The notes under the pieces were generated by a model. That model ran no database searches and was not told the origin of the DNA. It was given only the letters and a program-made list of their open reading frames with translations. Below, piece after piece: positions 1 to 62,342 of a stretch of 64,000 nt of DNA. A program made the translations under genes and the position numbers. Position 1 is the stretch's first letter; each line of letters begins with the position of its first letter. Source of the DNA: Torymus aiolomorphi (taxonomy: Eukaryota > Arthropoda > Insecta > Hymenoptera > Torymidae); contig CM070875.1 in the NCBI GenBank assembly GCA_036365515.1, positions 92,198,128 to 92,262,127 of the forward strand, given 5' to 3'.

Positions 1-80
1 CTTATCGTCTGACTTTTCAAAACAGTGGGAAAGCGTATTAGGAGGTTAGAGTATTAATATTATTTTTGAATGTGAAAGTA

Positions 81-960
81 ATGATTCAACCAAAATTGAC
101 TGGAATTACTATTGTGAAGTGACTGTTGTTATCGAGTAAGTATTTTGATTTACTTTTTATATTTACATATTTACATTACACTAATTTTTTTTTTCTTTTA
201 GGAAAGTGCCACATTATTTTTTACTAATTTATACAAATTACAACACTGTAATTAAAGATGTGATAGCTGGTGTTCGTGATGTTTTTTTGGATGAAAGTGT
301 GGCTGAGCAAGTAGTTCTTGGAGAGTTGAAGAGATTGATGTCGATGAAGACTATTGTAGTAAATCCTGATCCTCCAGAGGCACAACCACCTGTATTAAAT
401 ACTTATGCGAGTACGTCATCCAACAAAGTGGCTTCAAAAGTAAGAGTTCATTTGTTGTTTATAGCCTTCGTCAGTTTCAATTTATAAAATAAATTACTCG
501 CAATTTAATTTTATTATATAGGAAATATGAGTGCCAATGCTGCTAAAACACAAGCTGCATCAGGGGCGCAACAATAATTCCAAGAGCTTGTTTAGTGCTG
601 CTTCGCCTCCAATACAACAGTAACAAGTGTCACAGCCAGCGATATACAACCTTCTCCAATTCATCATCAAGCCCAACTGCAACCTCAGCCTCAACCTCAA
701 CAAATGACGTATCTAATAAAATATGTTCAACACATGCAGAGTATGCCAGTTCAACAACAAGTTTGGCAAATGCAACAGATTCAACAAGTTCAAAAAGTTG
801 GCTGTATTGCTATGACACAAATACATTTATGGTAGAAAACGCTATAATACAACACAAGCCATGGAAATGAATTAACTCTTAGCTAGTCTGGGAAATACAA
901 CTTCTTCAATTGGAACATTAAGTCAAAAGTTATTATTAATGTGATGTTTTTGCAAAAATT
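81..960 (+). pseudogene. TFIIA large-subunit gene fragment, left-arm copy
   Basis: The exon at 202-439 encodes the TFIIA-L amino-terminal helix region (…VIKDVIAGVRDVFLDES…AEQVV…ELKRL), followed by a proline- and glutamine-rich linker. It is bounded by a TTTCTTTTAG acceptor and a GTAAGA donor. A second acceptor at 520-521 leads into a segment encoding MSANAAKTQAASGAQQ and then a Gln-rich stretch (…QLQPQPQPQQMTYL…QQVWQMQQIQQVQ), as in the central part of TFIIA-L. A possible first exon starts with the ATG at 81. TFIIA-L is a subunit of the RNA polymerase II pre-initiation factor that stabilises TBP on the TATA box. The retained introns show that genomic DNA, not mRNA, was copied. In-frame stops and frameshifts (for example at 526 and near 573) make it a relic. 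Confidence 0.75.
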
Positions 961-1284
961 TGGAGAAGGAGCATTAATTAGGTTAAAAAAGTTTTTTATT
1001 GTTTTTACCGCATTTGCATCTATCATTGCTATGATAAAATTATTCCTTAAAGTCTTCTATAATTTTATCAATTATAATTTAATATGCCAATTGACGTATA
1101 ATTTATATGACAAACAGTATAGTAATTTTTGTAATGATCAAATGAGTAAATATTAACACGAATAAAAATGGATATTAAAAGTTTTTCATAAATTAATTTT
1201 CTTTTTATAGCAAAATTTTATAAAGCAGAATTACAGACTGGAAGTCAATATGTCAAAGCCATAAAAATGTCATGTAGCTGTTAA

Positions 1285-1435
1285 AAATGTATCCTTAGTC
1301 GAAGGATTAAGAGCTTGCCAGAATCCTAATGGATCTTTTACGGCTATGGTGACTGCTTGTGAGTGATACGAGGTTTGTTTATTGTGCCTGCTGTGTGTCA
1401 GCTATTCTGGATGACTGGTCTAGAGTATAGATAAG
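1285..1435 (+). pseudogene. Type I geranylgeranyltransferase beta-subunit fragment, left arm
   Basis: The translation contains LRACQNPNGSFTAMVTACE followed, after a frame loss, by RFVYCACCVSAILDDWS. This matches the conserved block of protein geranylgeranyltransferase type I beta (cysteine-containing repeat just after a QxxxGSF turn). The enzyme adds a C20 prenyl group to CaaX proteins in the cytosol. The block is about 50 residues of a ~370-residue family and is followed by possible intron sequence. In this arm a 2-bp deletion (near 1364) breaks the frame; the right arm keeps it. No start, zinc-ligand histidine or C-terminal part is visible. Confidence 0.68.
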
Positions 1436-1682
1436 TATACAAGTTTTATATAAAAAAAGTACAAGTAAAGTTTAAGTATAGTTACTTTGTAAAAACTTTT
1501 ATTTTTACAGCGCCGTCAAGAATTTATGGATTATTTCTTTTATTTTCAATCGTATTGTTTCCTGGCATCAAACAGAGACACTTAGTACCTTAAAAAAAGA
1601 TACTCGTGCCTTCCCATTGGATCTCATAGGCCCTAGGAGCTTCTGTATTCACCAAAATAAAAAGAAATTGCTATTTTCATCA

Positions 1683-2640
1683 TAAACACTGATAAAAACA
1701 ATGAAAAGTTTAAACGTATAAAAGGCAAAAGAGTAGTTCAGTTAAAGTTTAAAATAAGTAACAAAAACAGAATCTTATTCATAAATGTGCGAAATATAAA
1801 AATAAGTAAAAATAGATCAATGTGCAGTATTATCTACATGCAAGTGTACAAGTTAACGCGTGTCAACTTTAATATTCATATTAATCTGTTCGTAAATGAT
1901 ATTGTGATGATTATTGTGGATGGTGCTGCTTAAGCTGTAAGTGTGTTTTAGTTGAATAATTGTGGTGATTGTGTGTAAATGTAATAATAACTTTTAATTG
2001 AAGAACAATTAAAATATCGCCAAAACATGATATTGAAAATACTTTTTGCTAACAGTGTTGTATTCTTTCATAGTATTATGGTATAAAGATTTATTTTCAA
2101 TGTCTTCACAATTCTCACATATTAAAATTGATAGTTCACCATGGTGGAAGTTTAAGTTATGTGTTACATTTTGAAAAAATATAATCTGAACAGTTTGTTG
2201 GAGTTTTTACAATGTTTGGAAGTGTTTGATATGAAAATGAACAAATTAGGTGTATGTTTAAAATTGACAATTCAGCTTGTATTTTTCAAAATACAACACA
2301 TGACTTAAACTGACACTATGGTGAACTGTCAATTTTAATATGTGAGGATTGTAAATGAATCATTGAAAATAAATCTTTATACCGTAGCACTATGGAAGAA
2401 TACAACATCATTAACAACAAATATTTTCAATAACATGTTTTGCCTATATTTTAATTGTTCTTGAATAAAAAGTTATTATTACATTTACCTCAACTTAATA
2501 TAAACACAAAACAGTTGTAATAATTAACATAAATAAACTAGTTTATGTTATTTCATAAAATAAGTAAAGAGTAATTAAAATTTTCATTGTGTTCATCAGT
2601 GTTTACGATAAAGTTTGCATTTTATACGTATAATGTGCAG
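1683..2640. repeat. Nested imperfect palindrome (~0.95 kb), left arm
   Basis: Sequence from 1683 (CATAAACACTGAT…) pairs with the reverse complement ending near 2640. The best-matched stretch is around 2114-2143 against 2317-2346. The left half has about 180 extra bases (about 1750-1930) not matched on the right. It looks like a foldback, MITE-type insertion. No coding capacity. Confidence 0.75.
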
Positions 2641-2784
2641 TGCTTATTTTGTGACTTATTTTGTAAATCTCTGATTGGCTGTTTTTTAGTGTACATACCT
2701 TAATCTAAACAAAACAAAAATAGGGTGAGAATAGTTTTTGCTCGACAAATTTTTATCTGAATCCTTTTTCAAACCCTCTTGAAA

Positions 2785-3390
2785 ATAATTATATTCATTT
2801 TTAAATATCAAGAGCCACAAATGATTTATATTTTTGAGAATCAGACGGCTTTGAAAACTTAATATTATTCATTCATCTCAAATTGTGGACCTAGTTACTG
2901 ACCTTTGTCAAAGCATTAAAAATAGATTAAACATCAATATTCAACAGTTTTATGATAACACTTATACTTACATATCATATTTTATTTAAATATGATTCTA
3001 GTAATAAGTTTTTTCCTGCGTAATGGAATACACATTGCTAAACTGTCTGTCATAACATTGATTTTAACCCCATAGTACTAATTAATTCTTTAGGTTTTGT
3101 ACACATAATAGTAGATTAATTATGAAATTCAATTTTTAGTAGCTTATAAAATATACGAATAGAGTGTATTAGCAGTGCGAGCAGCTCCCATTGAAAAGCT
3201 AGACATATAAGTGTTATCATAAAACTGTTGAATATAGAAGTTTAATCTATTTTCCATGCTTCGACGAAATTCAGTGACAAGGTCCATGAAATATATTAGA
3301 TTCATGAATAATATTAATTTCTCAAATTCTCAAGTTTTCATTATTGGTGTCTCTTGATATTTAAAAATAAATAGAGGGTATTGTATAAAC
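2785..3390. repeat. Second nested imperfect palindrome (~0.6 kb), left arm
   Basis: Ends start with a CCCTCT-type motif, then AAATATCAAGAG on both sides. The stretch around 2918-2960 (…TCAACAGTTTTATGATAAC) reappears inverted at 3207-3250. It looks like a non-autonomous foldback element. No open frame. Confidence 0.75.
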
Positions 3391-4769
3391 AGATTGTATA
3401 ATTAAAAAAGCCAAGTCTGTGTATCGCTAAGAAAATTTAATAAATATAAATACTTCAAAAATGTATAAATTTAATACATGTTTTTTACTGCAAAGTCTCA
3501 GACAATTGATGAAAGAACCTCTTAGATTTAACATGGGTAAAAGTAAAATTAGATATAACACTATAATTTTTATTTATATATTCAATTCAAAATCCTTGAT
3601 ACATTAAGTATACAATACGGTAAATATATTTCTTTTGTATTCTAAAGAATAATTATATTTAATCTTGAAAATTTATGCCCTGATTAAAAAGGGAGGTATA
3701 TTCAACTGTCCTTGATTCGCCTCACGATGACGAGCTTCATACGCGAGATCCTGCTTTTATAAATTAGAAAACTCAACAAATTAAATGTAGCCTAATCGTG
3801 ATAGGAGTCAGCCTCTCGAAGACGAGCGACGTACGCGATCATTTCCTTTTTTAAAAAGTGAATACCCTGAACAAAAATAGAGGTATATTAAACTGTCCAG
3901 GAGTCGCCTATCGAAGACGAGCTTCGTACGCGACTTAAAGCTTTTATAAAAAAGAACCCTGCTCAAAATGAATGTAGCCTAATCGTGCCAGAAAAGTCGA
4001 GCTCTCGCAGAGGAGATTTGTAAGCGAGATTCTGCTTATATAAAATAGAACACTAAACAAATTGGATCTATCCTAATCGTGAAGGAGTCGGCCTCTCGAA
4101 GACGATCTTTGTACGTGAGCTTCTGCTTTTATAAAATAGAACACACAAGAAATTGTATGTAGTTTAATCGTGATAGGAGTCGGACCATCGAAGACGCGCT
4201 TCATACACGAGCAATTGCTATTTGAAAAAGTTGATTACCCCGATAAAAAATGAAGGTATATTAAACTGCCCAGGAGTCGCATCTCGAAGACGAGCTTCGT
4301 ACGCGAGCTTGTACTTTTATAAAATAGAACACTTAACGTATTGAATGTATCTTAATCGTGATAATAGTCGGCCTCTCGAAGACGAGCTTCGTAAGCGAAC
4401 TTTTGCTCTTTAAAAAAGGGAATACACTTTAAAAAATGGAGGTATATTTAACTGCCCAGGGTCGTCTACCAAATACGAGCTTCGTGCGCGAGATAGTGCT
4501 TTTATAAAATAGAACACTGAACGTATTGAATGTACCCTAATGGTGATAGGAGTCAGCCTCTCGAAGAGCTTCGTTATAGGCGAGCTTTCGGTTTTTTAAA
4601 AACTGATTAGAACGTGATAAATGGAGGTATATTAAACTATCCAAGATTCGCCTATCGAAGAGGAGCTTTGTAGACGAGCATCTACTTTTATAAAAAAAGA
4701 ACGCTGCTCTAAATGAATGTAGACTAATCGTGACAAAGGAGTCAATATCTCTAAGAGGAACTCCGTAAG

Positions 4770-6660: not shown

Positions 6661-8710
6661 CTGCCCAGGGGTCGCCTCCCAAAGACCTAAAATAGAACCC
6701 TTAACACAATGAATGTATCCTAATCGTGATAGGAGTCGGCCTCTCCAAGACGAGCTTCGTACGCGAGATTCTGCTATTAAAAAATAGAACATTTAACGCA
6801 TTGAATGTAGCCTAATCGTAATAGGAGTCGGCCTCTCGAAGACTAGCTTCGTACGCGAGCTTTTCCTTTTTTAAGGAGTTGTCCAGGAGTTGTCTATCGA
6901 AGACGAGCTTCGTAGGCCAGCATCAACTTTAATAAAAAAAGAACGATACACGAAATGAATGTAGACTAATCGTGCCAGAGAAGTGGAGCTCTCGAAGAGG
7001 AGCTTCCTAAGCGAGCGTTTGTTTTCTTAAAAAGAATAAAATACACTCATAAAACATGGAGGTATATTATAATGTTCAGAAGTCACCTCTCGAAGACAAG
7101 CTTCGTAATCGAGATTCTGCTGTTATAAAAGAGAACACTTTCCAAAATGAATGTATCCTAATCGTGATAGGAGTCGGCCTCTCGAAGACGAGCTTCGTAG
7201 ACGAGCATCTACTTTTATAAAAAAAGAACGCTGCTCAAAATGAATGTAGACTAATCGTGCCAAAGGACTCGAGCTCTCGAAGAGGAGATTTGTAAGCGAG
7301 TTTTTGCTTTCTTAAAAAGTGAGTACACTCGTCAAGAATGGAGGTATATTAAACTGCCCAGGTGTCACCTGTTGAATACGAGCTAATTGGTACGCGAGCC
7401 TCTGCTTTTATAAAATAGAACCCTTACCAAAATGAATGTATTCTAATCGTGATAGGAGTGGGACTCTCGGATACGAGCTTCGTACGCTAGATATTCCTTT
7501 TAAAAATAGAACACTTAACAAATTAAATGTAGTCTAATCGTGATAGGAGTCGGCCTCTCGAAGACGACCTTCGTACGCGAGCTTTTCCTTTTTAAAAAGT
7601 GAACACCCTGATAAAAATGGAGGTACATTAAACTGTCCAGGTGTCGCCTATCGAAGACGAGCTTCGTACGCGAGATTCTGCTTTTATAAAATAGAACACT
7701 TAACGAATTATAAGCTCGTCTTCGAGAGGCCGACTATTATCACGATTAAGATACATTCAATACGTTAAGTGTTCTATTTTATAAAAGTACAAGCTCGCGT
7801 ACGAAGCTCGTCTTCGAGATGCGACTCCTGGGCAGTTTAATATACCTTCATTTTTTATCGGGGTAATCAACTTTTTCAAATAGCAATTGCTCGTGTATGA
7901 AGCGCGTCTTCGATGGTCCGACTCCTATCACGATTAAACTACATACAATTTCTTGTGTGTTCTATTTTATAAAAGCAGAAGCTCACGTACAAAGATCGTC
8001 TTCGAGAGGCCGACTCCTTCACGATTAGGATAGATCCAATTTGTTTAGTGTTCTATTTTATATAAGCAGAATCTCGCTTCAAATCTCCTCTGCGAGAGCT
8101 CGACTTTTCTGGCACGATTAGGCTACATTCATTTTGAGCAGGGTTCTTTTTTTATAAAAGCTTTAAGTCGTGTACGAAGCTCGTCTTCGATAGGCGACTC
8201 CTGGACAGTTTAATATACCTCTATTTTTGTTCAGGGTATTCACTTTTTAAAAAAGGAAATGATCGCGTACGTCGCTCGTCTTTGAGAGGCTGACTCCTAT
8301 CACGATTAGGCTACATTTAATTTGTTGAGTTTTCTAATTTATAAAAGCAGGATCTCGCGTATGAAGCTCGTCATCGTGAGGCGAATCAAGGACAGTTGAA
8401 TATACCTTCCTTTTTAATCAGAGCATAAATTTTCAAGATTAAATATAATTATTCTTTAGAATACAAAAAGAAATATATTTACCGTATTGTATACTTAATG
8501 TATCAAGGATTTTGAATTGAATATATAAATAAAAATTATAGTGTTATATCTAATTTTACTTTTACCCATGTTAAATCTAAGAGGTTCTTTCATCAATTGT
8601 CTGAGACTTTGAAGTAAAAAACATGTATTAAATTTATACATTTTTGAAGTATTTATATTTATTAAATTTTCTTAGCGATACACAGACTTGGCTTTTTTAA
8701 TTATACAATC

Positions 8711-9316
8711 TATTTATACAATACCCTCTATTTATTTTTAAATATCAAGAGACACCAATAATGAAAACTTGAGAATTTGAGAAATTAATATTATTCATGA
8801 ATCTAATATATGTCATGGACCTTGTCACTGAATTTCGTCGAAGCATGGAAAATAGATTAAACTTCTATATTCAACAGTTTTATGATAACACTTATATGTC
8901 TAGCTTTTCAATGGGAGCTGCTCGCACTGCTAATACACTCTATTCGTATATTTTATAAGCTACTAAAAATTGAATTTCATAATTAATCTACTATTATGTG
9001 TACAAAACCTAAAGAATTAATTAGTACTATGGGGTTAAAATCAATGTTATGACAGACAGTTTAGCAATGTGTATTCCATTACGCAGGAAAAAACTTATTA
9101 CTAGAATCATATTTAAATAAAATATGATATGTAAGTATAAGTGTTATCATAAAACTGTTGAATATTGATGTTTAATCTATTTTTAATGCTTTGACAAAGG
9201 TCAGTAACTAGGTCCACAATTTGAGATGAATGAATAATATTAAGTTTTCAAAGCCGTCTGGTTCTCAAAAATATAAATCATTTGTGGCTCTTGATATTTA
9301 AAAATGAATATAATTA
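8711..9316. repeat. Second nested imperfect palindrome, right-arm mirror copy
   Basis: Mirror copy of 2785-3390 in the right arm. Confidence 0.75.
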
Positions 9317-9460
9317 TTTTCAAGAGGGTTTGAAAAAGGATTCAGATAAAAATTTGTCGAGCAAAAACTATTCTCACCCTATTTTTGTTTTGTTTAGATT
9401 AAGGTATGTACACTAAAAAACAGCCAATCAGAGATTTACAAAATAAGTCACAAAATAAGC

Positions 9461-10418
9461 ACTGCTACATTATACGTATAAAATGCAAACTTTATCGTAA
9501 ACACTGATGAACACAATGAAAATTTTAATTACTCTTTACTTATTTTATGAAATAACATAAACTAGTTTATTTATGTTAATTATTACAACTGTTTTGTGTT
9601 TATATTAAGTTGAGGTAAATGTAATAATAACTTTTTATTCAAGAACAATTAAAATATAGGCAAAACATGTTATTAAAAATATTTGTTGTTAATGATGTTG
9701 TATTCTTCCATAGTGCTACGGTATAAAGATTTATTTTCAATGATTCATTTACAATCCTCACATATTAAAATTGACAGTTCACCATAGTGTCAGTTTAAGT
9801 CATGTGTTGTATTTTGAAAAATGCAAGCTGAATTGTCAATTTTAAACATACACCTAATTTGTTCATTTTCATATCAAACACTTCCAAACATTGTAAAAAC
9901 TCCAACAAACTGTTCAGATTATATTTTTTCAAAATGTAACACATAACTTAAACTTCCACCATGGTGAACTATCAATTTTAATATGTGAGAATTGTGAAGA
10001 CATTGAAAATAAATCTTTATACCATAACACTATGAAAGAATACAACACTGTTAGCAAAAAGTATTTTCAATATCATATTTTGGCGATATTTTAATTGTTC
10101 TTCAATTAAAAGTTATTATTACATTTACACACAATCACCACAATTATTCAACTAAAACACACTTACAGCTTAAGCAGCACCATCCACAATAATCATCACA
10201 ATATCATTTACGTACAGATTAATATGAATATTAAAGTTGACACGCGTTAACTTGTACACTTGCATGTAGATAATACTGCACATTGATCTATTTTTACTTA
10301 TTTTTATATTTCGCACATTTATGAATAAGATTCTGTTTTTGTTACTTATTTTAAACTTTAACTGAACTACTCTTTTGCCTTTTATACGTTTAAACTTTTC
10401 ATTGTTTTTATCAGTGTT
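9461..10418. repeat. Nested imperfect palindrome, right-arm mirror copy
   Basis: Reverse-complement copy of the 1683-2640 palindrome, so this element was present before the 12-kb palindrome formed. Confidence 0.75.
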
Positions 10419-10665
10419 TATGATGAAAATAGCAATTTCTTTTTATTTTGGTGAATACAGAAGCTCCTAGGGCCTATGAGATCCAATGGGAAGGCACGGG
10501 TATCTTTTTTTAAGGTACTAAGTGTCTCTGTTTGATGCCAGGAAACAATACGATTGAAAATAAAAGAAATAATCCATAAATTCTTGACGGCGCTGTAAAA
10601 ATAAAAGTTTTTACAAAGTAACTATACTTAAACTTTACTTGTACTTTTTTTATCTAAAACTTGTA

Positions 10666-10816
10666 TACTTATCTATACTCTAGACCAGTCATCCAGAATA
10701 GCTGACACACAGCAGGCACAATAAACAAACCTCGTATCACTCTCACAAGCAGTCACCATAGCCGTAAAAGATCCATTAGGATTCTGGCAAGCTCTTAATC
10801 CTTCGACTAAGGATAC
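10666..10816 (-). pseudogene. Type I geranylgeranyltransferase beta-subunit fragment, right arm
   Basis: Mirror of 1285-1435. Here the reading frame through ESDTRFVYCACCVSAILDDW is unbroken, showing which arm is closer to the ancestral exon. It is still an isolated exon fragment with no sign of a complete gene. Confidence 0.7.
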
Positions 10817-11140
10817 ATTTTTAACAGCTACATGACATTTTTATGGCTTTGACATATTGACTTCCAGTCTGTAATTCTGCTTTATAAAATTTTGCTATAA
10901 AAAGAAAATTAATTTATGAAAAACTTTTAATATCCATTTTTATTCGTGTTAATATTTACTAATTTGATCATTACAAAAATTACTATACTGTTTGTCATAT
11001 AAATTATACGTCAATTGGCATATTAAATTATAATTGATAAAATTATAGAAGACTTTAAGGAATAATTTTATCATAGCAATGATAGATGCAAATGCGGTAA
11101 AAACAATAAAAACATTTCTTACCTAATTAATGCTCCTTCT

Positions 11141-12020
11141 CCAAATTTTTGCAAAAACATCACATTAATAATAACTTTTGACTTAATGTTCCAATTGAAG
11201 AAGTTGTATTTCCCAGACTAGCTAAGAGTTAATTCATTCCCATGGCTTGTGTTGTATTATAGCGTTTTCTACCATAAATGTATTTGTGTCATAGCAATAC
11301 AGTCAACTTTTTGAACTTGTTGAATCTGTTGCATTTGCCAAACTTGTTGTTGAACTGGCATACTCTGCATGTGTTGAACATATTTTATTAGATACGTCAT
11401 TTGTTGAGGTTGAGTCTGAGGTTGCAGTTGGGCTTGATGATGAATTGGAGAAGGTTGTATATCGCTGGCTGTGACACTTGTTACTGTTGTATTGGAGGCG
11501 AAGCAGCACTAGACAAGCTCTTGGAATTATTGTTGCGCCCCTGATGCAGCTTGTGTTTTAGCAGCATTGGCACTCATATTTCCTATATAATAAAATTAAA
11601 TTGCGAGTAATTTATTTTATAAATTGAAACTGACGAAGGCTATAAACAACAAATGAACTCTTACTTTTGAAGCCACTTTGTTGGATGAGGTACTCGCATA
11701 AGTATTTAATACAGGTGGTTGTGCCTCTGGAGGATCAGGATTTACTACAATAGTCTTCATCGACATCAATCTCTTCAACTCTCGAAGAACTACTTGCTCA
11801 GCCACACTTTCATCCAAAAACCATCACGAACACCAGCTATCACATCTTTAATTATAGTGTTGTAATTTGTATAAATTAGTAAAAAATAATGTGGCACTTT
11901 CCTAAAAGAAAAAAAAAATTAGTGTAATGTAAATATGTAAATATAAAAAGTAAATCAAAATACTTACTCGATAACAACAGTCACTTACAATAGTAATTCC
12001 AGTCAATTTTGGTTGAATCA
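11141..12020 (-). pseudogene. TFIIA large-subunit gene fragment, right-arm copy
   Basis: Mirror copy of the fragment at 81-960, read on the minus strand, with the same exon edges and the same Gln-rich segment. The two copies differ at scattered single bases and share the main lesions (a stop just after the second acceptor, and loss of frame in the Gln-rich part). The decay therefore largely preceded, or was homogenised after, the arm duplication. Confidence 0.72.
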
Positions 12021-12271
12021 TTACTTTGACATTCAAAAATAATATTAATACTCTAACTCCTAATACGCTTTCCCACTGTTTTGAAAAGTCAGACGATAAG
12101 ACGAGGAATCCGAAATCGGAACGTTGCGGCTCGCTCGCGTGTCGCGCTGCTGCCAACATTCAAACATTTCGGCCTGTGATTACGGTCGGAAGAATTCTCC
12201 CGATAATCCCATCACTGCTCACATGTTTAAAATCAAAATTATTATTCAATAATTGTGTATCTTTACTATAA

Positions 12272-13257: not shown

Positions 13258-14985
13258 CTGCCAATTCATTGGCCCGTAGCTTCCTCAACCGTAATTTGTT
13301 GATTCTTTTAATTAATTTTTAATAACAAAATTTATAATTTTTTAAAAAATTTATTGCATAATTATAATTAAATTCATTTATGAATATTAAAAATTGTTAA
13401 TTTTTAAATTTATTTATTTATTTATTATTTATTTATATCAAATTTATATAAATTTTGAGCTGATAAATAAAGTTATCATTTGAAATAGAAGTAAAATATC
13501 TATATTTTATAATAAAACAAATAGCTATCTCGGTTGTTTTGATATAAACAAAAACGTGTTTTTTTAAAAAAGTTCATAACTCACAAATAAATTATAATGA
13601 TACAGAATATAATGTATTCATAATGCATAATTCATAATTATAATAGATTATAATAGATATCATTTTTAAACATTTTAATTCATTTTGTTGGTTGGTTTTT
13701 TAAAAATTAAAAAAAATTCTTTATAAATTCTGCCGGGGTGAACCTTTATCTATTTAATGAATGTAGAGGTACATAAATCCATAAATCATTTACCATATCA
13801 AGTTCAGTTCTACTTCTTGCGGTTAATCGATGTCACGAAGAAAAGATAAATGCTATATTTCCCAATATGGGGACAAACTAATCCATAATTTCCTATAATT
13901 TCCAATATTGCGACAAATTATCAAAGCACTAGAAAATCCCTTATATGTACGCATAACGCACGACGCACCGAACCGTGTAGGCGTGTATGCAGTACTGCGG
14001 GATTCGTGACTAACCCACAGCTTGTTGGATCCGGCCGGAAGACATACTGCACTACACGCTACCCCGATCGCAGCGCCACCTACTCTTATACTATTTTAAT
14101 TATTCATCAGTTTTGAATACTTAAACTCAAGAATTCAGTCTTGAAAATTCAAACATATTAAATTTTGACGCCAATACTATATACTTTTATAATATACTGA
14201 TGATAACATCATTGGAGTTATGAGTTAAAAAAAAAAAAACACGTTTTTGTTCTTGATGATAACTAAAGATCCGTGATAGATAGAAAATTAATTTTTCTTA
14301 GAAAATATAGGTATTTTAATTCTCTTTCGAATGCCACCAACCCCATTCACAGACATAGAGCCGTTCTAGAGAAATTACGATTTAAAAAAAATGTCAAAAA
14401 ATTTTTACCCTCAAATATCTCTGAAATTTATGGACCAATCATTTTGCCCGAAGAACTCGACCGAGAACTATACAAAATCTACCTCTAAAAAGAATTTTGA
14501 AGCCATAAAGTCAATTTTACTCTTGTAATCATTGGACATACAAAACTTATTTTTTTCATTTTTCAATTTTTTACTCAAAATCTAGCCTACAGAATGTATT
14601 CAAATTTTAACAGATTAGAGCTATTTATATTCTGTATTATCATGATTTTTCTCAAAAAATTGACCTTTAAGTTTAGGAGTTATAAGCTTCTAAAGAAAAA
14701 CATTTTTGTTAATAACAAAAGAAAAGTGATAGCTAAAAACTTTTTTTTTTAGAAAATAGAGGTATTTTATTTCGCTTTCGAACGCTACCCATCAAATTCG
14801 AACAACTCGACCCTATCATTAAAAAAATCAAAAAACTGTTTTGAGAATATCGAAAATTTGAAAAAAAAGCAAAAACGCATCGTCCCAACCAAAAAACGGA
14901 TTTTTGACCCGCCGTCACGCAAAAAAAAACAAAAAAAATGAGACATGTCCGGTCAAAATCGACCGAGTAGAAGCTGAGATCTAGG

Positions 14986-32254: not shown

Positions 32255-32932
32255 AGGATGGAGTGAATAGGTCGATCAACGAGGAACCATGAGTAATAAT
32301 AAAACTTTGTTTATTAGACCGACGTTTCGGTACTGAAGTAAGTACCTTCTTCAGGGCTAAATAGGGAAAATACATAAGTACATATATACCAATTTTTTTA
32401 TAAGCACCAATAACGTTTTTTGACAGTGTACTGACCTAATGATTAAAAAAAAAAAAAGGTTTACACCATGATTCGTAGATCACGACAGGTGACGTCGAGC
32501 ATGATTCGGTACAATTCGGTACAGCACGTAGTGCATCGTCAAGACACGGATTTTTGTTCAACTAGAACAATTGAATTTGAAAAATTTTTTAATTTAAGTT
32601 AACGAATTAAAAATTTATTTATTTAAATGAAGTAATAAACAGTTAAATCTCTTACCCAACCTGTGCTCTGGAGTCCCATATTTTCGACAATGAGAGAAAA
32701 GCGAATTTCCCGGGGTTTATATACCCACGGGGGTGACGTTAATAACGCAAATTCAAATTTGTAATTCGAGAGTGGGAGGAGAGGGAGCGAGCTAGCTGGT
32801 AGCGTACTGGAGGGGCGGGCTCGGCCCGATTCTGAGTGTACGACTACCCGCGTTTATTATTAATATCGTTATTATAAAAGTGCTTGTTCGTTGTGTCAAC
32901 GGATTTTTTATAAATATATTTGAGATTCTTAC
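32255..32932 (-). mobile_element. Penelope-like terminal repeat, copy 1
   Basis: Same sequence as 48475-49140 and, inverted, 57870-58545. On the minus strand it contains a TATATAAA box ahead of CCCGGGAAATTCGC, an A-rich tract and, near its end, a hammerhead-like motif. At copy 2 the sequence is contiguous with the end of a Penelope reading frame, which is the basis for the assignment. At the 32932 side the sequence passes into a ~300-bp tandem repeat. Confidence 0.7.
32321..32354 (-). ncRNA. Hammerhead-like motif in Penelope terminal repeat, copy 1
   Basis: Minus strand: CTGAAGA, one extra A, stem GGTAC/GTACC with an 8-base loop, GAAA, then CGTC. This is the CUGANGA…GAAA core with a minimal helix III. 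Penelope-like elements are reported to carry minimal hammerheads of this kind that may act as dimers. The extra A between core and stem II is non-standard. Confidence 0.55.
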
Positions 32933-36327: not shown

Positions 36328-39300
36328 TTATACATTTTGAACAATCTTCAGCTTTCTACATTTTGTCGCAATCGGTCTTTTAGACGCAGTTTTCCTATTA
36401 TTGTTACGTTCCCTAGTTTTCGCATAAATTTTAACTAACAAAAGAAATTTAAGCATTTGTACTCTGTGCTCATAACAGACATTCTCTTGATCAAACCAAT
36501 CAGGGAACTGTTTACGAGTGTACGCTTCTACGTTTTCAGCTAACTTAAGTAAAAGATCATGCTCATGCCAAAATTTTAAATAAATTTTGTCAAAGGCTTC
36601 TAATTGACAATTAACTACTTTTGCAAACTGTTCCGTTGGTCTGACTAAGAACATTACTGATGGAACTTCTGGATCAGAATGAGGGTACTCTCTCAAGTTG
36701 ATGTATGTTTCATTACTGGTTCCAGATTCTGATGCATCTTTCATTAAATCTTTTTCGCATGTCAGACAATGATTTTTTTCTAATGATTTACGCGCCACGT
36801 AACCAGAAAAGTATGTTATAGCGTTTTGTTCATAACTAAATTTAGTGTCCATATCTGACATGTTAGAAGACTGTAACTCTAGATGGAAATCCAGTAAATC
36901 GTCTGCAGCATCTGTAATTTCTTGGAGCTCTTGCATTTCCTTGGAATTATATTCAGGTAGTGCAACTAACTCTGTGGTCTCTTTTTCAACGTCATTTTGA
37001 GGAAGTAACGAATGGCTCTCTTCGCAACTTGTGTTACCTTTTTTACTCGTATGAATAAAATCGGTTGACATTATGTGCCTAAGAGTCAAACGATATGTCC
37101 TACAGGTAGGATTCGGATTGAATCCACCTCTGCCACGCAACTTGGAGTGAGCATGTTCCACAGAATCTTGGTTGCACAGACCTGTTGCTAATTCAAAGTC
37201 GGGGAATGAAGATTTTATTTCCAAATACAGACTTACTAAAGCACGAGCAGTCAGAGGTAACCCCAAAAAACAAGGTGGCTTGTTGTCGTTCCCTTTTTTC
37301 TTTACATTCCATTTCTCTGACCACTCGATAAAACTTTCAAGTCGCTGCTGGATTTCTGTCAGATAATGGTCGCTTCAATGCATGGCGATTTTTCAAACTA
37401 TATACATTACATGCATCGATGACAGCATCCATTATTTCAACGAAATTGGCTGAATTTTGCCATGTATTCGAAGACAACCCTGATAAAACATCTTCGCCGG
37501 CTAATTTAATTGCACAGGCCATGCGACGGCTTAACAGTTGAAAAGCAAGCTTTACTTTCATAGCATCAAAACTATTAGGATTAAAGTGATTTTCTGATAA
37601 AAAGCCTAATAAATTTGATGTACCATGAGAGCGGTCAAGCTCCCAGGTTTGCTTTAAATCGGTAAAAAAAATAATTTTTTCGTTATCGACATAAATGCAA
37701 TCGTGGGCTCTTAGCTGTGCTATCAATCTCTTAATAAGGTGTGGCCAATCAAAAGTTGCAAAAATCTTAACAGAATCTAAAATAAAATAAGGCTTTTCTG
37801 GACATACATCCAATAATTTAAATAACTTTTGATTGTTGCTACCTTGGTCACATACAATCACACGAATATCTGCTCCTATTTTTCGAAGTTCTGTTACGAT
37901 TTGGGGAACAATCTCAAAGAGCTCTTCTGCACTGGCGCCATTTTCGTTAAACCCGAAAGATACTATTTGACGCCATGAATTTTTTGCATTTATGCTGTCA
38001 ATACAAAATAGCAACGCGTGTTTCGCGACTTTACAATCTCTGCGATCTTTTCCCATATCGACCAGACCTTCAATTACATCATATTTCTTAGAATATTCTT
38101 CCGCTGCTCTGATGGACATTTCATAAAATTTCAACGCACACAGTCGCTCTTGTGGCGGAAGCAGCATCAAATATTCTCCTATCTTCTTCAAAATTGCGTC
38201 ATTGATCCCTGGGACGATTTCACATTCTGCCACCCACGATCTAACCTTTGATTCAGCTGGCAAAACTAACCCTCCCGCCCTTAATCGAGAATAGCAAGCT
38301 GCTGAATGAAAATAAATTTGTTTTGCCAAGTCTTTCTCTTCGGTTGTGTATGGCGTGTTGGGCTTGTGCAACTGCAATTTCATCATCGTCTTAGCCATAT
38401 CAGGGATGTTTTTTTCTTTTAAAAGATCATTAATATCAGAAAATTTTTTGGACACTTTTTGATGTAAACGTCTAGTCAAACGACTGTTTTTATTTTTCTC
38501 AGTTTTGAGGGATCTCTGTAACTGCTTAACCTTTGATTCTGCAGCTAATAATTTACTTTTTAATTTACAAATATAAACTTTACTACGAACCATTGTATCA
38601 ACAACGCGTTTTCTCAATGGTGAAGCAATTGGAGCAGAGTCCTCAGTTGTGGAGCTAACGTTTACTTTAACAATTTTAACAGGAGATTCGTAATTCAGAA
38701 ACGACAGGTCATCATCTTTTTCAGAAAAAGAAAAAATTTCTTTACCCGAGGGGTAAGTTACAGGTGGCAGTAACCTTTTCAACACACCTACAAAATCAAT
38801 TTCTTTTTCTGGTTGGGACTTTTCTATCGTTTCAGTAACAATGTCTTGTGCTACCTGTAGTTTTTGTTGTTCTAGTTGTTGATCTTGTTGTTGTTGGTCT
38901 TGTTGTTCTGGTTGCTGTTGTTGCTGTCCTTGTTGTTGTTGTTGTTCTTGATGTGGTTGTTGCCTTTGTTGTTCTGGTTGTTGTTGATGTTCGGCTTCTT
39001 CTTCACACATCTGCACCTGGGCTTGCAGTTGCGCAGGCAGTTCATTGTCAGCATTTTTATGCCCTTGCCAATGAAGGAGAACTGTGCCACGCTTTAAACT
39101 CGTCGGCCCTAGCACGTCATCCTCGCTGAAGTGGAGGCGACAAAGTCCTGCACGCCTAAGTGAAGCTGGCGTCCAATTCAAAAGTACTTGGTTTCCTGCG
39201 AAAATTTAAAATTGATTTAGAGTTTCGTATTATTTTTTTTAGTTATTCAACTAATATTAGCAGTAATTTGTTATTTATCTTGAAGTAAATTATTCTATTC

Positions 39301-42300
39301 GACTATTAATAGCATTTATGGTTATTTTACTACAGCAACTTTGTGGCAAAAAGAAAAAAAGTTCCATAAAAGACATAGTGGGTTTCAGTTAAGAAAATTT
39401 GAAGCTAATGGCCAAGCTGTCAATGTAAACTCTAAGATGTTATTTTTTCCCTAATATTCTCAGTCCCGAGCATGTATATATCCACAATATATCACTATCT
39501 AAATGTTTCGTCAACTCTCGGAGAATTTTTTTGTAAGAGAAAAGAGTTTTAAATGAAAATTACAAGTTTTGGAAAATCAAATGCTTTTACTTTAAACGAT
39601 ATCTTATTAAAATGTAGAAATATAGAAAAGTGTTTCGCCCTCGGCACTGTCTGTTGGGCTCGTCAGGAGGACGCAGACAGGCCTTGCCTCGACACACGTG
39701 ATAAAATTTTTTAGAAATCGTATCACAAAATCTTAGTGACACTGGAGTATCTTATATATTCTAAATGCAAAATTTTTGTTACAATTTGACAGGCTCCATC
39801 TATTGGGAAAATAGATAAAGTTCTATCGGACCGCTGTAATTAGGCCAAAGCGGTTTAATTATATTTATTTATTGATTCTAATGACAGACTTGTTATAAGT
39901 TAAGAAAATTTGAAGCTAATGGCCAAGCTGTCAATGTAAACTCTAAGATGTTATTTTTTCCCTAATATTCTCAGTCCCGAGCATGTATATATCCACAATA
40001 TATCACTATCTAAATGTTTCGTCAACTCTCGGAGAATTTTTTTGTAAGAGAAAAGAGTTTTAAATGAAAATTACAAGTTTTGGAAAATCAAATGCTTTTA
40101 CTTTAAACGATATCTTATTAAAATGTAGAAATATAGAAAAGTGTTTCGCCCTCGGCACTGTCTGTTGGGCTCGTCAGGAGGACGCAGACAGGCCTTGCCT
40201 CGACACACGTGATAAAATTTTTTAGAAATCGTATCACAAAATCTTAGTGACACTGGAGTATCTTATATATTCTAAATGCAAAGTTTTTGTTACAATTTGA
40301 CAGGCTCCATCTATTGGGAAAATAGATAAAGTTCTATCGGACCGCTGTAATTAGGCCAAAGCGGTTTAATTATATTTATTTATTGATTCCAATGACAGAC
40401 TTGTTATAAGTTAAGAAAATTTGAAGCTAATGGCCAAGCTGTCAATGTAAACTCTAAGATGTTATTTTTTCCCTAATATTCTCAGTCCCGAGCATGTATA
40501 TATCCACAATATATCACTATCTAAATGTTTCGTCAACTCTCGGAGAATTTTTTTGTAAGAGAAAAGAGTTTTAAATGAAAATTACAAGTTTTGGAAAATC
40601 AAATGCTTTTACTTTAAACGATATCTTATTAAAATGTAGAAATATAGAAAAGTGTTTCGCCCTGGGCACTGTCTGTTGGGCTCGTCAGGAGGACGCAGAC
40701 AGGCCTTGCCTCGACACACGTGATAAAATTTTTTAGAAATCGTATCACAAAATCTTAGTGACACTGGAGTATCTTATATATTCTAAATGCAAAATTTTTG
40801 TTACAATTTGACAGGCTCCATCTATTGGGAAAATAGATAAAGTTCTATCGGACCGCTGTAATTAGGCCAAAGCGGTTTAATTATATTTATTTATTGATTC
40901 TAATGACAGACTTGTTATAAGTTAAGAAAATTTGAAGCTAATGGCCAAGCTGTCAATGTAAACTCTAAGATGTTATTTTTTCCCTAATATTCTCAGTCCC
41001 GAGCATTACAGCGGTCCGATAGAACTTTATCTATTTTCCCAATAGATGGAGCCTGTCAAATTGTAACAAAAATTTTGCATTTAGAATATATAAGATACTC
41101 CAGTGTCACTAAGATTTTGTGATACGATTTCTAAAAAATTTTATCGCGTGTGTCGAGGCAAGGCCTGTCTGCGTCCTCCTGACGAACCCAACAGACAGTG
41201 CCGAGGGCGAAACACTTTTCTATATTTCTACATTTTAATAAGATATCGTTTAAAGTAAAAGCATTTGATTTTCCAAAACTTGTAATTTTCATTTAAAACT
41301 CTTTTCTCTTACAAAAAAATTCTCCGAGAGTTGACGAAACATTTAGATAGTGATATATTGTGGATATATACATGCTCGGGACTGAGAATATTAGGGAAAA
41401 AATAACATCTTAGAGTTTACATTGACAGCTTGGCCATTAGCTTCAAATTTTCTTAACTTATAACAAGTCTGTCATTAGAATCAATAAATAAATATAATTA
41501 AACCGCTTTGGCCTAATTACAGCGGTCCGATAGAACTTTATCTATTTTCCCAATAGATGGAGCCTGTCAAATTGTAACAAAAATTTTGCATTTAGAATAT
41601 ATAAGATACTCCAGTGTCACTAAGATTTTGTGATACGATTTCTAAAAATTTTATCACGTGTGTCGAGGCAAGGCCTGTCTGCGTCCTCCTGACGAGCCCA
41701 ACAGACAGTGCCGAGGGCGAAACACTTTTCTATATTTCTACATTTTAATAAGATATCGTTTAAAGTAAAAGCATTTGATTTTCCAAAACTTGTAATTTTC
41801 ATTTAAAACTCTTTTCTCTTACAAAAAAATTCTCCGAGAGTTGACGAAACATTTAGATAGTGATATATTGTGGATATATACATGCTCGGGACTGAGAATA
41901 TTAGGGAAAAAATAACATCTTAGAGTTTACATTGACAGCTTGGCCATTAGCTTCAAATTTTCTTAACTTATAACAAGTCTGTCATTAGAATCAATAAATA
42001 AAAATAGTGGGTTTCAATTCAATTAAAATCGAATTAAAATGCTATTTTTAAATAATGTCTCCACATCATAACGTGAATATAATTTCATTTAATATATTCA
42101 GAAAATTATAAGATTCTATCTTTTCGAAGCTAATTTTATTTCTATAATTTTGTTACAATTAATAAATAAATTTTTCATTTTTTGAGACTTCGAAATTAAC
42201 GTTAAACTTATATTAATGATGCATTCGACGCAGGATTCAATTTCCGACATTTAAAAAACAAAACTGTTTTTTAGCTATTCTTCGTAGTTCTTATGGAAAA

Positions 42301-48475: not shown

Positions 48476-49202
48476 GAGTGAATAGGTCGAACAACAAGGA
48501 ACCATGAGTAATAATAAAACTTTGTTTATTAGGCCGACGTTTCGGTACTGAAGTAAGTACCTTCTTCAGGGCTAAATAAGGAAAATACATAATAAGTACA
48601 TATATACAAATTTTTTTATAAGAATCAATAACGTTTTTTGACAGTGTACTGACCTAATGATTAAAAAAAAAAAAAAAAAAAAAAAGGTTTACACCATGAT
48701 TCGTAGATCACGAGACAGGTGACGTCGAGCATGATTCGGTACAGCACGCAGTGCATCGTCAAGACACGGATTTTTGTTCAACTAGAACAATTGAATTTGA
48801 AAAATTTTTTTTTTGAATTTAAGTTAACGAATTAAAAATTTATTTATTTAAATGAAATAATAAACAGCTAAATCTCTTACCCAACCTGTGCTCTGGAGTC
48901 CCATATTTTCGACAATGAGAGAAAAGCGAATTTCCCGGGGTTTATATACCCACGGGGGTGACGTTAATAACGCAAATTCAAATTTCTAATTCGAGAGTGG
49001 GAGGAGAGGGAGCGAGCTAGCTGGTAGCGTACTGGAGGGGCGGGCTCGGACCCATTCTGAGTGTACGACTGTCCGCGTTTATTATTAATATCGTTATTAT
49101 AAAAGTACTTGTTGGTTGTGTCAACGGATTTTTTATAAATATATTTGACATTTTTAGTGTCATCCATTCGATTTAAACTGTTTTTTTGTGAATGTATATG
49201 GG
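48475..49202 (-). mobile_element. Penelope-like element 3' part and terminal repeat, copy 2
   Basis: On the minus strand from about 49202 the end of a Penelope reading frame is seen (HSQKNSLNRMDDTKN…), matching the C-terminus of the frame at 51841-52737. It runs on to a stop near 48964, then TATATAAA, the A-tract and the hammerhead-like motif. It breaks off at 49202 against a different element. Confidence 0.75.
48536..48569 (-). ncRNA. Hammerhead-like motif in Penelope terminal repeat, copy 2
   Basis: Same motif as at 32321-32354: CTGAAGA-A, GGTAC/GTACC, GAAACGTC. Confidence 0.55.
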
Positions 49203-51299: not shown

Positions 51300-52737
51300 C
51301 CAAAACACAAATAAAAACAAATGGCTTTTAAATTTATCCTCGACCACTTTACCCATATATGCAACTGAAATCTTAAGCCTAGGAGAAAAATTTAATTTTA
51401 CTGCGGATACAGATAAAAAAACGTACTTTGAACTTTTCAAGGATATTGAAAGTGCCAGGTCTAGTAATGATATTAATGACAATATTAGAAACAGATTACT
51501 GAATTGCGTCAATCACCACACGTAGTTTCCCTCTTTACGAACCTCTCCAAAGAAATCATTCTTAAAGCTTTGGGAAAAAAGTGGTCATATTTTGGCAACT
51601 TACTTCCCATAAGTAAAAAAGGGTTCCTGAAAGGAGTGGAATTACTGCTTGACTCTACGTTTTTTACGTTTAATGGTGAATTTTACCGGCAGATCATGGG
51701 TGCCCCTACGGGTTTCTGTTCAAGCCCCTTGTTTGCAGACGTAGTGTTAGAATTTCTTGAAAATAAATGCTTAAGTTCAGTAAAAAGCTCAATAATTTTA
51801 TACAAACGATATGTCGATGACTGTTCTTTAGTTATTAAAAATGATTAATAAAGTTTTAGAAAAATTTAACTCGTTTGATCAGTTTTTGCAATTTACTGTT
51901 GAACTAGAAATAGATAATAGTATTAGCTTTTTAGATATTAAAATCATTAGAGAAAATAATGACATTGTAAAAACGAATTGGTACAGGAAACCTACCGCCT
52001 CCGGTAGATACATTAACTATTTTTCACATCACCCTACCCACCAGAAAATTGCAGTTATTTACGGACTAGTTGATAAGACAATTAAAATCTCACACATTTC
52101 TTTCCACAATGAAAACTTAAAAATTATCAAATCCTTTTTAATGCAGAATGAGTATCCTCTTACCTTCATAGAAAAATATATTGATAAACGCTTACTTTCT
52201 TACGAACACAACAACAATCAAACTTACAATAAACAAGATCACCGTAACAAGATTTTAGTAATCCCTTTCATTAAAGACTTAAATAAAAAACTTTGCAGTA
52301 CTATGATAGACGTTAAGAACTTACGAATGATCAATAGAAACATTAATAAACTAAGATTTATAAAACTAGGTAAAGATAAGTTAGATCTGCTTGAAACAGT
52401 ATCTGTTGTCTACAAATTTATCTGTAAAGAGTACGATGCATCTTATGTAGGCACTTCAAAAAGGAAATTAAGCAAACGTATATATGAACACAAGTACGCG
52501 GTCTCTAAATCGTTAACTACCTCCGCACTTTCAGATCACGTTAAAATAACAGGACATAAAATAGACTTCGAAAAAACACAAATAATAGACACAGAAACTA
52601 ACTACCAAAAACGCACTTTTTCCGAAATGTTGCATATATATTCACAAAAAAACAGTTTAAATCGAACGGATGACACTAACAAGGAAGGTACCCCAAGTGT
52701 AAGTCGCCGATTTGGACGATATTGCAATATCTTGTAG
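51300..52737 (+). pseudogene. Penelope-like reverse transcriptase with GIY-YIG endonuclease, broken
   Basis: Three frames join in order: LNLSSTTLPIYATEILSLGE…RSSNDINDNIRNRLLN; then VSLFTNLSKEIILKALGKKW, GAPTGFCSSPLFADVVLEF and the catalytic YVDD; then, after a shift at about 51845, ISFLDIKIIRENNDI, RKPTASGRYINYFS and finally YKFICKEYDASYVGTSKRKL-x-KRIYEH. The last is the GIY-YIG nuclease domain that distinguishes Penelope elements from LINEs. Such proteins nick DNA and reverse-transcribe from the nick. Frameshifts near 51520 and 51845 disable this copy. It ends where the ~300-bp tandem repeat begins (52681). Confidence 0.87.
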
Positions 52738-57865: not shown

Positions 57866-58545
57866 CAAATATATTTATAAAAAATCCGTTGACACAACGA
57901 ACAAGCACTTTTATAATAACGATATTAATAATAAACGCGGGTAATCGTACACTCAGAATCGGGCCGAGCCCGCCCCTCCAGTACGCTACCAGCTAGCTCG
58001 CTCCCTCTCCTCCTACTCTCGAATTACAAATTTGAATTTGCGTTATTAACGTCACCCCCGTGGGTATATAAACCCCGGGAAATTCGCTTTTCTCTCATTG
58101 TCGAAAATATGGGACTCCAGAGTACAGGTTGGGTAAGAGATTTAGCTGTTTATTATTTCATTTAAATAAATAAATTTTTAATTCGTTAACTTAAATTCAA
58201 AAAAAAAATTTTCAAATTCAATTGTTCTAGTTGAACAAAAATCCGTGTCTTGACGATGCACTGCGTGCTGTACCGAATCATGCTCGACGTCACCTGTCGT
58301 GATCTACGAATCATGGTGTAAACCTTTTTTTTTTTTTTAATCATTAGGTCAGTACACTGTCAAAAAACGTTATTGGTTCTTATAAAAAAATTTGCATATA
58401 TGTACTTATTATGTATTTTCCTTATTTAGCCCTGAAGAAGGTACTTACTTCAGTACCGAAACGTCGGCCTAATAAACAAAGTTTTATTATTACTCATGGT
58501 TCCTCGTTGATCGACCTATTCACTCCATCCTAAATTAATATTCTG
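57866..58545 (+). mobile_element. Penelope-like terminal repeat, copy 3 (plus orientation)
   Basis: Inverted relative to 32255-32932. TATATAAA at 58065-58072, with a CGTCACCCC stretch upstream, looks like a promoter. The hammerhead-like motif lies near its 3' end, followed by the shared terminal phrase CCTATTCACTCCATCCTAAA. Confidence 0.72.
58432..58465 (+). ncRNA. Hammerhead-like motif in Penelope terminal repeat, copy 3
   Basis: CTGAAGA-A, stem GGTAC/GTACC, GAAA, CGTC. Identical to copies 1 and 2. Confidence 0.55.
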
Positions 58546-62027: not shown

Positions 62028-62342
62028 TTTAGCTGTTCTCGGCAGTGCGTGCCGAGAAGTCTAAGTTGGTCAGGAGTGGTGGATGCTGGTCGGTAAGGTA
62101 GCTGTGTTTCGCCCCAAGGTTACCATCGTTGGGCTCATCAGCAAGGCTTGATGGTAACCTCTGCCTTGGACATACAGGTTGATGTCTGTACTGCGTTAGA
62201 CGTTCTATATATACTAACCGCAAGGCGATTCGGCCACTTGCGGGAGTTAGTATACATGATAATTGGGACACGCTCTCTAGCGGTGGAGCGGGGCAGCGGA
62301 GCTGCTACGGATGGAGAGAGAGGGGGACTCTGGAACCCCACA
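62028..62342. mobile_element. Retrozyme-like insertion (315 bp) with 4-bp target duplication
   Basis: Compared with the empty paralogue near 14098, 315 bases interrupt TTTTAATTATT, and AATT is repeated on both sides (62024-62027 and 62343-62346). The insert is GC-richer than its host and has strong hairpins (TTCTCGGCA…TGCCGAGAA at 62036-62058; CCGCAAG…CTTGCGG near 62220-62245). It encodes a hammerhead on the minus strand. No protein frame is credible. Plant retrozymes also show 4-bp duplications, by retroviral-type integration. Confidence 0.82.
62105..62176 (-). ncRNA. Type III hammerhead ribozyme in the 315-bp insertion
   Basis: Minus strand: TGTC | CAAGGC-loop-GCCTTG CTGATGA GCCC-loop-GGGC GAAA CA. 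Helix I is six pairs, helix II four or more, and helix III three clear pairs (TGT/ACA). The core is canonical and the cut follows GUC (between 62170 and 62169). Loop I has GGTTACCATC and loop II GATGGTAACC, a ten-base perfect complement. Same plan as the 39-42 kb units with different loop bases. Confidence 0.85.

Follow-up and report, generated by a model that had tools for sequence, protein, structure and literature searches.

Metazoan non-LTR retrozymes, in the part of the source available (PMC7229834), are short non-coding units of about 150-450 bp with type I hammerhead ribozymes, arranged in tandem, low in GC, flanked by target duplications longer than 4 bp and accompanied by PLE-like sequences. 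From their co-occurrence and the tandem layout, Penelope-type elements (PLEs) have been put forward as strong candidate movers of animal retrozymes (PMC7229834). Plant LTR retrozymes, as the accessible portion of PMC4918200 presents them, carry type III hammerheads in units of several hundred nucleotides, have an LTR arrangement and are flanked by a 4-bp duplication. Delta-like RNAs and termite and fly genomes contain pseudoknotted type III hammerheads whose loops I and II form Watson-Crick pairs; their helix I is longer and includes an internal loop, the consensus loop pairing amounts to ~4 nt (GCCR/YGGC), and the termite genomic copies are isolated motifs (PMC7936874). In the cave cricket Dolichopoda, a repeat of roughly 500 bp with a hammerhead, pDo500, forms a satellite family, according to the available text of PMC2837043; a satellite of this kind would be a long head-to-tail array that lacks a target duplication.

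The 64-kb window, i.e. the whole stretch of DNA analysed here, contains a 2.6-kb array of 511-bp units with predicted type III hammerheads, which shares features with each of these systems. Like the metazoan non-LTR retrozymes as described in the available part of PMC7229834, it consists of short non-coding tandem hammerhead units in which no LTR was seen; the GC content of the unit is 32.9%, below 50%, its target duplication of 13 bp exceeds 4 bp, and a PLE-like sequence lies nearby. It departs from them in the type of its hammerhead, in its unit of 511 bp, in its two inverted arms and in its circle, which at 53% paired is not highly self-paired. It has in common with plant LTR retrozymes, so far as the accessible text of PMC4918200 goes, the type III hammerhead and a unit of several hundred nucleotides, and differs from them in the absence of an LTR arrangement, in a duplication of 13 bp rather than 4 bp and in its 33% GC. 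The pseudoknotted ribozymes of PMC7936874 resemble those of the array in their loop I-loop II pairing and their insect hosts, whereas the array has two short stems, of 4 bp each, and a loop pairing of 7 bp, which reaches 11 bp in a second element of the window, at 62.1 kb. The likeness to pDo500, drawn by description only and from a partial view of PMC2837043, is that of an insect repeat of roughly 500 bp with a hammerhead; unlike that satellite family, our locus is an insertion of five units flanked by a target duplication, and it harbours no long head-to-tail array.

The insert spans positions 39388-42003 (2616 bp) and, together with its borders (39375-42016), reads as duplication, left arm, right arm, duplication (Table 1). 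Successive units are spaced by 511 and 511 nt in the left arm and by 510-511 nt in the right arm. The arms are mutually inverted, head to head, and align over 648 nt at 99%, with 142 nt between the aligned stretches. The target duplication, ATAGTGGGTTTCA, is perfect, direct and 13 bp long; it occurs twice within the 64-kb window, both times at an edge of the insert, and sequence comparison in this window showed that the 13-mer is absent from the 511-nt unit. Outside the duplication the flanks differ, with 8 of 30 positions matching upstream and 12 of 30 downstream. The initial annotation had described near-identical units of ~511 bp in both orientations and a perfect 13-bp target duplication, and both descriptions hold. 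Because there is one pair of target duplications, and its sequence is absent from the unit, the 39388-42003 stretch is a single insertion event.

Table 1. Features of the array and of the second predicted hammerhead. Circle positions are counted from the first base past the predicted ribozyme cut.
Feature	Position	Strand	Remarks
Target site duplication, left copy	39375..39387	.	13 bp
Left arm	39388..41006	- (ribozyme sense)	~3.2 units of 511 nt; outer end circle 303, inner end 218
Likely reverse transcription start, left arm	39388..39388	-	Putative; circle 303; 1-nt ambiguity with the last A of the duplication
Predicted hammerhead L3	39627..39698	-	Core 39633-39666; cut 39691/39690; listed by Rfam search, matches descriptor
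Predicted hammerhead L2	40138..40209	-	Core 40144-40177; cut 40202/40201; listed by Rfam search, matches descriptor
Predicted hammerhead L1	40649..40720	-	Core 40655-40688; cut 40713/40712; listed by Rfam search, matches descriptor
Inversion junction	41005..41006	.	2-bp microhomology AT common to both arms
Right arm	41007..42003	+ (ribozyme sense)	Just under 2 units; inner end circle 364, outer end 338 plus an extra A
Predicted hammerhead R1	41147..41218	+	Core 41179-41212; not listed by Rfam search, fails descriptor
Predicted hammerhead R2	41657..41728	+	Core 41689-41722; cut 41664/41665; listed by Rfam search, matches descriptor
Likely reverse transcription start, right arm	42002..42003	+	Putative; in AATAAATAAA; circle 338, then one non-templated or ambiguous A
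Target site duplication, right copy	42004..42016	.	13 bp
Second predicted type III hammerhead	62101-62176	-	25.6 bits with the Rfam type III model (gathering 48.5); matches descriptor

Long inverted arms so alike and just 142 nt apart would also be produced by a fold-back artefact of the assembly. We consider this origin extremely improbable, as the flanks are not mirrored, the duplications are direct, and the two arms have different private differences and different ends. In order to compare the units, we divided both arms wherever the ribozyme is predicted to cut, which yielded seven unit pieces, and aligned these. Seven columns are variable, each because of a private variant in a single piece; in one of them this is the additional A that terminates the right arm. 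As no variant is common to several pieces, growth of the array by exchange between diverged units is excluded. This speaks against a hammerhead satellite DNA of the pDo500 kind, which would have grown by unequal exchange and been inverted later, and which the tandem units and their length, near the roughly 500 bp given in the available part of PMC2837043, might bring to mind. Such a satellite would moreover have to be reconciled with a small number of units, about five, enclosed by a single perfect target duplication, and with an inversion breakpoint falling exactly on that duplication (on one side the inversion stops at the duplication, on the other at the AT microhomology), and we hold it to be very unlikely. 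The private differences would fit the repeated copying of a single circle, and would also fit a transcript from an older array in which each unit had diverged on its own. The earlier proposal that the element was inserted as a multimer can thus be kept as regards the one insertion event; a multimeric RNA is unnecessary, since several rounds on one 511-nt circle fit equally well.

On the sense strand the plan of the unit is GUGUC^GAGG-loop I-CCUC CUGACGA GCCC-loop II-GGGC GAAACAC, with helix III open, and therefore of type III. We searched the window with a type III descriptor that requires a cleavage triplet (NUH), three stems, a CUGANGA core and GAAA. It returned five matches in the 64 kb, namely four of the five array copies and one site at 62.1 kb, while a single one of 300 dinucleotide-shuffled windows contained any match and none of the 300 contained one with at least 5 bp of loop-loop pairing. 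With the Rfam type III model (RF00008), the same four array copies scored 28.0 bits (E 0.0037 in a search of 2.8 kb), short of the 48.5 bits that the model sets as its gathering score, and a scan of the whole window at gathering level listed nothing. The scores of the array and 62.1-kb hammerheads probably remain below gathering because of their large loops. Neither the descriptor nor the Rfam search identified a ribozyme on the opposite strand of the unit.

The type III layout proposed in the initial annotation is supported by the three stems, the open helix III and the descriptor matches of four of five copies, and the descriptor places the cut at the same position as had been predicted, 39691/39690. 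A covariance-model match above threshold, the lack of which that annotation would have taken as a refutation, was not obtained (28.0 versus 48.5 bits); the shuffle-controlled structure search nevertheless supports the motif. Its count of five complete hammerheads has to be amended: the five cores are present and four copies are fully paired, but copy R1 harbours a G-to-A change at the first position of stem II, which breaks the first pair of this stem (A.C). Copy L1 has one substitution in loop II, located outside the loop pairing. The latter is formed by CUGUCUG of loop I, complementary to CAGACAG of loop II over 7 bp, and GGC/GCC might add 3 bp beyond a bulge. This pairing, the offset between the arms described below and the hammerhead at 62.1 kb are additions to the initial annotation.

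The second type III hammerhead lies in a 315-bp insert (62028-62342, minus strand) with 54% GC and AATT on both sides, i.e. a 4-bp duplication. The repeat around this insert has a related copy at 14.05-14.12 kb, which is devoid of the insert and has a single AATT at 14098-14101. Upstream of its hammerhead the insert harbours TATATATA. It could represent a solo LTR, left in an animal genome by an LTR retrozyme of plant type or by an LTR element, and it is closer than the array to the plant LTR retrozyme kind, as far as the available account of the latter goes. Its ribozyme has the stem II of the array, GCCC/GGGC, whereas the other stems and the loops differ in sequence, and its loops pair perfectly over 11 bp. 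The best support here for the importance of the loop pairing is its retention in both elements despite their different sequences. Loop I-loop II pseudoknots are known in all three hammerhead types, according to the accessible part of PMC3088659.

In both elements the minimum-energy nested fold of the ribozyme region is not a hammerhead. Calculated without the loop pairing, it amounts to -26.1 kcal/mol in the array, compared with -9.7 kcal/mol for the three stems, and to -24.6 compared with -10.9 kcal/mol at 62.1 kb. The loop duplex, taken as a free duplex, contributes -8.9 to -15.1 kcal/mol in the array and -16.3 kcal/mol in the 62.1-kb ribozyme. With the loop pairing added to the three stems, the hairpin and the kissing-loop hammerhead could be close in energy, on an estimate that is not a computed pseudoknot energy. 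The complementarity of loops I and II is predicted to lock the active ribozyme, and the use of the same bases in both states suggests that the hairpin may protect the circle and the kissing form may cut it.

The 511-nt circle, of which 53% is paired, is not unusually structured (z -1.17; 9 of 60 shuffled sequences did as well). The pairing on the two strands is 53% and 63%, with z about -1.1, and no rod-like fold was obtained. The longest ATG frames in the circle encode 13 aa (sense) and 53 aa (antisense). No Pol III B box was detected on either strand of the unit, and one A-box-like site is present on the antisense strand. These properties bear on a further possible origin, an infectious circular RNA of viroid-like or delta-like kind that a host reverse transcriptase would have brought into the genome. 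This origin is suggested by the type III hammerheads with loop pseudoknots of toad and termite delta-like RNAs and of termite and fly genomes (PMC7936874). The frames include none for a delta antigen, the fold is not rod-like, the opposite strand has no ribozyme, and two exact patterns had no match in viral contigs; we regard this origin as highly improbable. A looser viral pattern and a genome-contig pattern gave 15 and 3 loci, respectively, and none of these 18 passes the type III descriptor; a search for DNA relatives in plasmids and phages, in distant mode, gave no match. As a separate observation, the IMG/VR viral contig L006 (2028-2671) contains a run of three hammerhead-like motifs, spaced by about 270 and 340 nt, which by eye resemble type I.

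How the array came to be inserted is best considered in the light of PLEs. In vitro, the purified PLE protein of Anolis cuts both strands of its target and extends each of them, starting at two adjacent internal RNA positions without strand difference; the stretch between the two starts forms the 30-40-bp 'tail' of PLE copies, and ATT is favoured (PMC11167929). Insertion proceeds without need of ribozyme cleavage, uncut RNA being the main substrate (PMC11167929). In rotifers, as reported in the available part of PMC3846280, PLE insertions show a head-to-head inverted repeat with a one-sided tail of 31 bp, an inverted copy shorter by 37 bp, and target duplications of 8-10 bp; Arkhipova's group, in the same partial source, explains the head-to-head repeats by self-priming on antisense RNA.

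At our single locus, we found both the head-to-head inverted copy and an offset within the 30-40-nt range of the PLE tail. The outer ends of the two arms correspond to circle positions 303 and 338, which are 35 nt apart, and neither of them is at the predicted ribozyme cut. Two random starts on a 511-nt circle would fall 30-40 nt apart with P = 0.043, a value computed post hoc, and at most 35 nt apart with P = 0.139. A predicted stem-loop at circle 270-319 (z -1.72, 11 of 200 shuffles as good) holds position 303 in its loop, and position 338 is just beyond it. The array thus resembles PLE insertions, as far as the rotifer source describes them, in the apparent copying of both strands, the internal start, the head-to-head inversion, the short target duplication and the longer end of 35 nt versus 31-37 bp. 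It differs from them in that its unit has no reverse transcriptase or endonuclease gene and that its duplication is 13 bp rather than 8-10 bp long. Of the two target cuts, that of the top strand (TTTCA^ATT) lies before ATT, in line with the PLE preference, and that of the bottom strand (CTAT^GTC) does not.

The explanation that we favour, and to which we give a somewhat better than even chance, is that of a non-autonomous retrozyme whose circular RNA was copied by PLE-type machinery from either end of the target. We infer its ribozyme cleavage, its circular RNA and its PLE step. Transcripts would self-cleave at the predicted type III hammerhead and be ligated into 511-nt circles. A reverse transcriptase with its endonuclease would nick the AT-rich target with a 13-nt stagger, and each 3' end would prime on the RNA inside or just past the predicted stem-loop. 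Copying would then run round the circle, for ~3 rounds on the left and ~2 on the right, and the two cDNAs would be joined via AT. Several points weigh against this reading. In the Anolis study cleavage was dispensable and RNA that had not been cut served as main substrate, so that PLE insertion can do without a circle, and the rotifer head-to-head repeats have been given the antisense self-priming explanation. In addition, the evidence comes from one locus, the bottom-strand cut and the longer duplication do not fit, the PLE-like fragment in the window is broken and shares no long sequence with the unit, the minimum-energy fold of the ribozyme is not the hammerhead, and the circle is of unremarkable structure. 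The target-primed origin with head-to-head inversion put forward at the outset is in any case upheld by the duplication, the inverted arms and the AT junction.

The same layout could be generated by LINE-mediated twin priming. The template would be the uncut transcript of an older tandem array, a linear multimeric RNA, on whose A-rich AATAAATAAA the LINE nick would prime, and the second strand would prime upstream, giving the inverted 5' arm. In line with this, the right end is A-rich (AATAAATAAAA), the arms on a linear multimer would be only 60 nt apart (circle 304-363), the private differences fit the transcript of an array with independently diverged units, and fragments of R1-like and other reverse transcriptases are found within the window. 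A 13-bp duplication is within the LINE range, and hammerhead repeats of Nematostella have LINE-like 15-bp duplications, as stated in the accessible part of PMC4918200. Twin priming does not predict the 35-nt offset, and no long poly(A) is present. The L1-type target site is TTTT^AA, from which the bottom-strand cut CTAT^GTC differs. Two points lead us to prefer the PLE reading, namely the 35-nt offset and the need for a linear RNA that exceeds five units to escape five predicted self-cleaving ribozymes; we consider a LINE origin unlikely.

In a more specific version of the PLE reading, to which we give rather less than an even chance, the circular RNA would have hijacked a PLE-type reverse transcriptase. 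Rolling-circle copying would have proceeded from each target edge, from the two start sites of a PLE tail, and the concatemers would have been stitched head to head; the loop complementarity would act as an on/off switch, with kissing loops in the active form and a plain hairpin in the circle.

Remnants of several mobile elements surround the array. A broken R1-like LINE is present at 17.6-20.7 kb, and its organism-named relatives, 16 of 16 among the best 120 of 900, are insects, which makes an animal host likely, as the initial annotation had supposed, and more precisely an insect or another arthropod. A broken Penelope-like fragment (51489-52737, plus strand) consists of two open pieces, the second of which has a GIY-YIG match at 22.2 bits, marginally below the Pfam cutoff of 22.6. 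The longest match between the unit and this local PLE fragment is 10 bp, compared with 12-13 bp for background tiles, and thus reveals no relation above background; the fragment is too rearranged for any head-to-head layout to be read. An open frame for a TNP-like (RNase H fold) transposase of 622 aa (37340-39205, minus strand) ends, on its upstream side, ~180 bp from the array. It has 11 relatives, one of them named, from Bombus fervidus, with 33% identity. The window also contains a large inverted repeat (1-4389 / 7712-12100), whose 4.4-kb arms are 99.1% alike and include tandem repeats of ~90-190 bp. Finally, CTGAAGAAGGTACTTACTTCAGTACCGAAACGTCGG occurs three times in a dispersed repeat, at 32325-32354 (minus), 48540-48569 (minus) and 58432-58461 (plus), with a CTGAAGA..GAAAC motif that resembles the minimal type I hammerhead of PLEs. 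An Rfam scan of the 32.3-kb copy, one of the three, gave no match.

In our view, the new aspect of this locus is a combination, that of a type III element of 511 nt in a host that is likely an insect, strong loop-loop pairing and a mirror-image insertion with a PLE-like offset. Within the open-access literature, seen in part, we found no type III retrozyme array from an animal; no paper linking a hammerhead ribozyme with twin priming was found there, and the combination of type III hammerheads and insects gave nothing beyond the delta-like study (PMC7936874). According to the available part of a review (PMC7761336), work on insect elements that carry type III hammerheads was in preparation. 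We place the array among the animal retrozymes; the PLE mechanism would be the bold, testable part of this interpretation. As to which machinery moves animal retrozymes, the locus displays in one place both putative primed ends, the offset between the starts and the stitched junction. It provides a test for genomes with many copies, namely whether copies end at two sites 35 nt apart. If the hijacking of a PLE-type enzyme by circular RNA is true, the array would be a molecular fossil of the movement of animal retrozymes.
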